Shown piece after piece: positions 31,868-32,710 of a stretch of 64,000 bases of DNA. This stretch comes from Nocardia albiluteola (lineage in GTDB: Bacteria; Actinomycetota; Actinomycetes; Mycobacteriales; Mycobacteriaceae): positions 124,001-188,000 of the forward strand of contig NZ_JAHKNI010000004.1 in the NCBI RefSeq assembly GCF_018860155.1. The letters are read 5' to 3'. The position numbers were made by a program, and so were the translations under genes. Positions within the stretch are counted from its first letter, which is position 1. Each line of letters opens with the position of its first letter. The notes below the pieces were generated by a model. The model was not told the origin of the DNA, searched no databases, and worked only from the letters and a program-made list of their open reading frames with translations.

Positions 31868-32470
31868 CTAGCGGGGACGGGGTTCGTAGAAGGCTATGCC
31901 CCAGTTCAGGTGTCCGTGCCAGACGCTGGCGATCCGGCCGCCCTGCACCGCGGCCTTGGGCTCGCCGACCGGGCCGCCCGCGGCGTGCACTGCGGCGACC
32001 GTGGCGTCGAGATCGGTTGTGCCGAAGGCAATTCCGGGAAGGCTGGCGGGTTTGCCCGACCCGACCACCTCGAGTACCGCCGCGCCGGCGCGATAGAAGG
32101 CCATCTCCGGGCCTGCGGGGCCGCGGGGGTGGAAACGGCGCCGTGGTTCGGCGCCGAGGACGGAATTGAGTGCCGTAATCGCGTCGTCGAGATCGGGCAC
32201 CCAGTACACGACGTGATCGATGAAGCTCACCGCGTTGGGGTGCGGGGCGTCGGCGTCACCGGCACCCTGGTCGGCGGCGTGGGGCAGCAGCTCGGGAATG
32301 TCCAGGGCGGCGGGATCGGCGGAAGTGCCGTCGAAGCCCCAGCTGGGTGCCGTATTCACCGTGCACTCGATCTCGCCGATCCGGAAGCGCCCGTCGGCGA
32401 TCGCGAAACCCAGTGCCGCCCAGGATTTTTCCTCGCCCGGCAGGCCGAGGCGGGTCAGGGCGGCGCTCAC
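31868..32470 (-). CDS. Two-domain VOC (glyoxalase-like) protein
   Basis: 200 residues, two VOC halves: GLPGEEKSWAALGFAIADGR ... CTVNTA and the better conserved second, FIDHVVYWVPDLDDAITALN, MAFYRAGAAVLEVVGSG, GIAFGTTDLDATVAAVHAAGG, WGIAFYEPRPR. A His in FIDHV and a Glu near AVLEV fit metal binding. GTG 32470 overlaps the stop of the last repeat mini-ORF (GTGA), making it the end of a coupled chain from the PadR gene. Role probably linked to the dienoyl-CoA-type reductase; substrate unknown. Confidence 0.85.
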   Translation of the reverse strand: MSAALTRLGLPGEEKSWAALGFAIADGRFRIGEIECTVNTAPSWGFDGTSADPAALDIPELLPHAADQGAGDADAPHPNAVSFIDHVVYWVPDLDDAITALNSVLGAEPRRRFHPRGPAGPEMAFYRAGAAVLEVVGSGKPASLPGIAFGTTDLDATVAAVHAAGGPVGEPKAAVQGGRIASVWHGHLNWGIAFYEPRPR

Positions 32471-32710
32471 GACTCCACCTCGCTGGCGCTCGGCTCCGTC
32501 GTGCCCGGGGCGCGCTGGCCTGACGGTTCACTCCGCTTCGCTCCGCTCACGACTCCACCTCGCTGGCGCTCGGCTCCGTCGTGCGCGCCGCGCGCTGGCC
32601 TGACGGTTCACTCCGCTTCGCTCCGCTCACGACTCCACCTCACGGCTACTCGGCTCCGTCCCGCGTGAGGCGTGTCGGCCCGATGGTTCGCTCTGTCCCG
32701 GCCCGCTCAC
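32467..32710 (-). repeat. Three exact 80-bp tandem repeats encoding coupled 27-codon mini-ORFs
   Basis: Units 32471-32550, 32551-32630 and 32631-32710 align without gaps; the first two are almost identical, the third diverged. On the minus strand each begins GTGAGCGG and encodes 27 residues: consensus VSG...SEPSG then ..A..., TEPS..EVES. The period is 80, not 81, because each TGA stop shares three bases with the next GTG (GTGA). The first GTG (32710) overlaps the fadH stop and the last stop overlaps the VOC GTG. The third unit has many substitutions but no stop codon or indel. Confidence 0.9.

Follow-up and report, generated by a model that had tools for sequence, protein, structure and literature searches.

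Interspersed Nocardia repeats placed at NTGA start codons: a phase-keeping family of a known kind

The array between the FadH-like and VOC genes and its family

What do three tandem repeats do at the junction of two bacterial genes, and do they belong to that junction alone? The question is raised by a stretch of Nocardia albiluteola DNA of 64,000 nucleotides (the window), whose minus strand carries, from 32710 to 32467, three tandem units of exactly 80 bp (TRF period 80) between a FadH-like gene and a glyoxalase/VOC gene. Each unit is a GTG...TGA frame of 27 codons, and four GTGA stop/start overlaps (32707-32710, 32627-32630, 32547-32550 and 32467-32470) chain the stop of the FadH-like gene, through the three units, to the VOC start. 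An earlier examination of the letters (the sequence-only reading) had given these coordinates, the period, the frames and the four overlaps, and all proved correct when checked on the sequence and with TRF. The features of the locus are listed below.

32707..34791, minus strand: upstream gene, FadH-like (Oxidored_FMN and Pyr_redox_2; named FadH in the sequence-only reading)
32627..32710, minus strand: unit 3, transcriptionally 5'-most and diverged; GTG..TGA, 27 codons; GTGA shared with the FadH stop
32547..32630, minus strand: unit 2, 27 codons
32467..32550, minus strand: unit 1, 27 codons; its last GTGA is the VOC start codon
32638-32641 and 32558-32561, minus strand: GAGG in unit 3 and in unit 2, same motif as in unit 1
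32478..32481, minus strand: Shine-Dalgarno-like GAGG of unit 1, its first base 11 nt ahead of the GTG
31868..32470, minus strand: downstream gene, glyoxalase/VOC; its start matches the N-terminus in relatives

Unit 3 was described in the sequence-only reading as diverged without a stop or an indel; indeed, it differs from the neighbouring unit at 22 of 84 positions, has the same length and keeps its frame open. At least 19 changes separate it from every other 80-bp unit compared in this genome. Unit 2 differs from unit 1 by three changes, and over 84 nt it has exactly the sequence of two units in a different array (L003), which lies on the same contig at a distance of about 316 kb.

Three further copies of the family are present in the window.

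28217..28371, minus strand: second array, where a short-chain dehydrogenase gene (27426-28220) starts with GTGA
57860..58004, minus strand: third copy; it has a 39-bp internal tandem expansion and shares its frame with an allantoicase gene (56853-58004)
37398..37471, plus strand: weak remnant (E 9e-4) where a fatty-acid desaturase gene starts with GTGA; in frame with that gene

The second array forms a relay of 98 + 53 nt via an internal ATGA and occupies a stand-alone start; the loci of 21 out of 29 relatives align across this site, and all 21 have the GTGA without a unit. The third copy is not a relay: it is a 48-residue N-terminal extension of the allantoicase, and the Pfam match of that protein starts at residue 64.

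We searched the whole assembly (9.59 Mb, 47 contigs) at the DNA level with the query array and obtained 51 matches. A profile built from the sequences of 32 units alone gave at least 156 matches in the same genome, assembly duplicates on contig C3 included, a number that puts the repeat beyond chance. From these we counted at least 85 distinct arrays with 140 units, a lower bound in which four weak places of the profile search are left out, as are L008, for its overlap with L006, and the C3 loci L002, L015, L019 and L026, which duplicate loci of C34. Contig C3 (32-195 kb) looks like assembly redundancy: the four locus pairs compared with C34 are all 100% identical in reverse orientation, and a run of N lies inside the array copy L002. 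Outside this assembly, an exact 34-base unit pattern was found in 43 stretches of named species genomes, all titled Nocardia. Among 301 sampled genomes of the family, 31 had profile matches, 25 of them in the genus of the window (its own genome included), while the six genomes of other genera had one weak match each (best E 4.8e-6); at least four genomes of the window's genus in this sample had no match. The number of units varies widely within the genus, from 0 to at least 97 in 23 other genomes. The query array is thus one member of a family of interspersed repeats found in the genus Nocardia.

Placement at start codons and preservation of phase

We then looked at where the arrays end. The final four bases are NTGA in 78 of the 85 arrays of the genome. 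To place them relative to genes, the 300 nt after each array were scored in six frames by codon usage, with a model trained on the window and the fetched loci. Of the 77 testable arrays, 66 had the best downstream coding frame opening at their last NTG and 11 did not (77 being the 85 minus seven with no NTGA at their end and one followed by too little sequence). Applied to the 973 control NTGA sites in the window, the same test places 254 in front of a coding stretch in frame 0. In other genomes the last NTG opened the best frame in 47 of 56 cases (from 58 arrays), in a set of 59 loci taken from the best matches and so biased to well-kept copies.

For the 50 arrays of this genome that have an intact relay and stand at a gene start, the upstream side was informative. 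In 25 of them the stop of the upstream gene is the first NTGA, whereas the upstream side is non-coding in 19, in another sense frame in five and antisense in one. The target is therefore the start codon and not the operon junction as such, which is one frequent setting. The sequence-only reading had proposed to test for enrichment at stop-start junctions; the preference for gene starts is marked (66/77 versus 254/973), and the junction itself is found in 25 of 50 cases. The idea of a mobile or expandable coupling spacer holds in that the units are interspersed, expandable, located at gene starts and keep the relay; it is refined as regards the operon junction.

The spacing of neighbouring full units, measured by HMM and hence independently of any relay, was 3n-1 in 40 of 42 cases in this genome (30 of 80 bp, nine of 77 and one of 71; the other two spacings are 70) and in 14 of 14 in other genomes (11 of 80 and three of 77). 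The sequence-only reading had argued that a period of 80 and not 81 keeps the 4-nt overlap. The relay itself was examined by following stop-to-NTGA restarts from the first to the last NTGA. It was unbroken in 57 and broken in six of 63 arrays of this genome (the 85 minus 15 with no clear first NTGA and seven with no last one), and unbroken in 44 and broken in seven of 51 arrays elsewhere (the 58 minus five and two, respectively). Intact relays stood at gene starts in 91 of 101 cases, compared with five of 13 broken ones (Fisher p 6.6e-5), and the length of single units was 3n-1 in 57 of 61 cases at gene starts versus eight of 16 elsewhere (p 1.9e-4); as arrays share descent, these p values overstate independence. 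Three of the four broken relays found at gene starts in this genome have a length divisible by three (150, 81 and 78), and by their frames these arrays could be read as N-terminal fusions. Six loci with 78- or 79-bp units (L093, L119, L151, L156, L157 and L160) have lost the phase; none lies before a frame-0 gene, and in all six the first N matches column 25 of the unit (see below).

Relatives provide sites without a unit. At the FadH/VOC junction, the 29 relatives studied are the best matches among 150 genomes, and 27 of them have FadH stop and VOC start in direct overlap (20 TAATG, five TGATG and two GTGA); the best-scoring one (L122 in G012, 87% over the FadH part) has GTGA at this position. 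The remaining two have a partial duplication (L126) and another arrangement (L134). In L126 (G104) the FadH/VOC junction is partly duplicated and the copy stops after six codons, so that no relay is formed; this locus is a counterexample to the 3n-1 rule.

The joined flanks of the 50 arrays were also aligned to 59 loci of relatives, 16 of these 50 junctions having first been chosen by hand. Seventy-nine alignments span 11 of the sites, the second array of the window (28217-28371) among them; none contains a unit of the family, and lengths differ by a net -3 to +21. Since a spanning alignment cannot cover an occupied site, these 79 show absence where it was found and not its frequency. With the query set aside, the other 10 loci have 51 alignments, of which 47 show NTGA at the join, and at one of these loci (L020) the GTGA of this genome corresponds to ATGA in seven aligned relatives. 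At the query site NTGA is present in two of 28 alignments, the others having TAATG or TGATG overlaps.

Four of the aligned loci (L189, L200, L203 and L208) carry other duplications just upstream of the join. In three of them, L200 (G127), L203 and L189 (G156), the 3' end of cysD, including its TGATG overlap with cysN, is repeated in tandem with periods of 116 bp (L200 and L203) and 113 bp (L189), all 3n-1. Judged from their sequences, the cysD/cysN duplications read as independent relays, unrelated to the 80-bp family. In the L020 orthologue of G156 (L208:1440-1530) a 62-bp duplication, again 3n-1, ends in ATGA, and G096 gives the same match pattern as G156 there. We found no description of such phase-keeping junction duplications in the portions of the literature searched.

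Anatomy of the unit and alternative readings

A GAGG or GGAG is located at -11 from the last NTG in 49 of the 50 arrays. When columns of 66 distinct 80-mers were compared, the top covarying pair was 52-79, with AT in 55 units, CG in four, GC in two and TA in one, the remainder being GT (two), TG (one) and GG (one). In 58 distinct 77-mers, pairs 47-78 (CG 36, TA 14; pairing in 52/58) and 49-76 (AT 25, GC 13, CG 6; pairing in 49/58) belong to the same stem as 52-79 of the 80-mers, a stem that includes the last NT. Columns 11-24 of the 77-mers are blurred, perhaps by misaligned subtypes, and only this 3' stem was used. Many top-ranked covarying columns are unable to pair (24-40 and 56-76, 0/66 each), meaning that shared descent drives much of the covariation signal. 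With this in mind, the aligned units indicate that the bases pairing with the start codon covary through compensatory pairs. The final start codon is predicted to be unpaired with a probability of 0.17 when the unit is present, as opposed to 0.36 when the flanks are joined (p 5e-4, n=50); for the Shine-Dalgarno region plus the start the values are 0.34 and 0.40 (p 0.03, n=50). This lower predicted accessibility fits a start that would be hidden until the mini-ORF is read.

The covarying stem is one of three points in favour of a different reading, in which the repeat is a DNA or RNA structure element (for transcription attenuation, mRNA stability or protein binding) that owes its place at start codons only to a target preference for NTGA, its phase being inherited from a founder and not selected. 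Copying passes on the length of an element, and six of six phase-broken copies keep the match of the first N to column 25 with none of them preceding a frame-0 gene. We nevertheless consider this reading unlikely, because unit lengths of 80, 77 and 71 all fall in the same phase, because that phase is better kept at gene starts than elsewhere (57/61 and 8/16), and because control NTGA sites precede frame-0 coding in just 254 of 973 cases.

The base before the first TGA corresponds to column 25 of the unit as G-C in 88 of 88 arrays and as A-T in 24 of 26 (Fisher p 1.2e-22), the two exceptions being L017 and one array elsewhere; in the 66 distinct 80-mers the combinations are G-C 56, A-T 7, A-C 1 and G-A 2. 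IS200/IS605 elements have a Y1 transposase, TnpA, and recognise tetranucleotide targets by pairing them with a guide inside the element. The Nocardia unit resembles them in its tetranucleotide end and in a variable base matching an internal column (112 of 114 arrays overall), and differs in that its own genome is without a Y1 transposase: no Y1_Tnp (PF01797) was found there, and mobilisation of the IS200/IS605 type by a resident enzyme is accordingly unsupported in this genome. Among 148 genomes of the genus, 28 contain the domain; it is absent from the unit-rich G005, G008, G017 and G022, and in G009, also unit-rich, a single weak partial match was obtained (E 4.2e-4). That column 25 might be a guide choosing between ATGA and GTGA starts, making the unit a self-addressed mobile translation cassette, is a speculative and rather doubtful idea drawn from these base matches; against it stands L020, where this genome has GTGA and the aligned relatives ATGA. 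If it were true, such a cassette could enter genes at their NTGA starts without shutting them off.

The sequence-only reading had also raised the possibility of small peptides. Most units do have open frames, and the peptides are alike between units, a likeness that follows from recent common DNA ancestry. In close pairs of units, which are non-independent, substitutions are spread evenly over the three codon positions (96:78:87 in 80-mers and 38:37:35 in 77-mers), and the synonymous share (81/261 and 33/110, respectively) is about what the shifted frames give (72 and 78 of 261; 26 and 37 of 110). No selection on the peptide sequence was seen in this comparison, which gives the peptide idea no backing and makes it very improbable that the units encode functional 26-27-residue peptides retained for their own sake. 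It would appear from these counts that the frame matters and the peptide does not.

As to how the arrays arose, the nearest relative of the 49 units in multi-unit arrays is in the same array for 30, in another array for 14 and tied for five, which indicates that local growth and copying between loci may both be at work. We give almost no credence to local tandem duplication of each gene's start region as the sole origin, without dispersal, since a single family occupies at least 85 places and 14 of the 49 units are nearer to another array, with identical units in L001 and L003, even if 30 of 49 are nearest to a unit of their own array and gene-end duplications such as that of cysD/cysN do arise independently.

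A probable termination-reinitiation relay and its relation to known repeats

The family, its placement, the unit-free sites in relatives, the preserved phase, the covariation of bases pairing with the start codon and the lack of peptide selection are established observations, and one explanation probably covers the whole: these are interspersed Nocardia repeats that insert at NTGA starts and form a relay by termination-reinitiation. Units would insert at NTGA (GTGA or ATGA) start codons, so that one or more of them come to sit between the ribosome-binding site, or the upstream stop, and the gene body. Each would open at the NTG with a stop-free frame of 3n-1 nt, bring its own Shine-Dalgarno-like GAGG 11 nt before the new NTG, and end in a TGA overlapping that NTG. 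Termination-reinitiation would then hand ribosomes on to the real gene, the start would be masked by stems as long as the mini-ORF has not been read, and the units would move as copies. The mechanism put forward in the sequence-only reading is in this way largely supported, the relay by ribosomes itself being what we infer from the sequences.

The sequence-only reading knew of no description of such a repeat, which is wrong as regards its kind. MIRUs (mycobacterial interspersed repetitive units) have DTGA as their target and sizes of 77 and 53 bp. According to a 2025 review (PMC12548453), which cites Supply et al. 1997 for the insertion, MIRUs enter start codons in such a way that an ORF inside them is coupled at -4 nt, and another paper gives them a size range of 40-100 bp (PMC2734929). 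As far as these accounts go, the Nocardia family is alike in being interspersed, short (within the range of PMC2734929) and tandem-forming, and its architecture, known here from sequence, is alike in start-codon insertion and in an internal ORF overlapping by 4 nt. By analogy, it would be a kind of repeat already described and would work like MIRUs. We found no description of a Nocardia counterpart of the MIRU relay in the portions of the literature searched.

We also compared the sequences, using a MIRU motif with up to one mismatch. It was found in 19 of 397 genomes of the order, all of one genus, presumably Mycobacterium, and in none of 10 genomes sampled from the genus of the window. In four of 12 MIRU-motif loci (L217, L219, L221 and L227) there are NTGA-to-NTGA relays of 50 or 53 nt (3n-1) that end at a long ORF preceded by a GAGGAG stretch; no such relay was seen in the other eight. 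Searches of the 12 loci by nhmmer with two unit profiles gave best E values of 0.41 (not at the motif) and 0.74, so that no sequence kinship with MIRUs was detected. The likeness seen is one of architecture; the pairing and covariation of start-codon bases were observed in the Nocardia units.

A further comparison is offered by ETR-F/VNTR3239, described in the relevant part of PMC2734929 as tandem repeats between rnc and fpg of M. tuberculosis, these genes being 1 to 54 bp apart in the listed species outside the complex. Like the Nocardia units, these repeats stand before a gene start; unlike them, they measure 55 and 79 bp, which is not 3n-1, and a relay is not described in that part of the paper.

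Altogether, this is a well-supported repeat family of a known kind, to which structural features are added. The same architecture in Nocardia, with no sequence relation detected, suggests that start-codon relay repeats are not peculiar to mycobacteria, and the unrelated 62-, 113- and 116-bp duplications at other junctions share the 3n-1 phase. Since the phase is kept more at gene starts than elsewhere, the mechanism proposed for MIRUs becomes testable by comparison. Some copies are now N-terminal extensions of proteins, and the annotated starts of such genes may need review. The units look like natural portable reinitiation modules.
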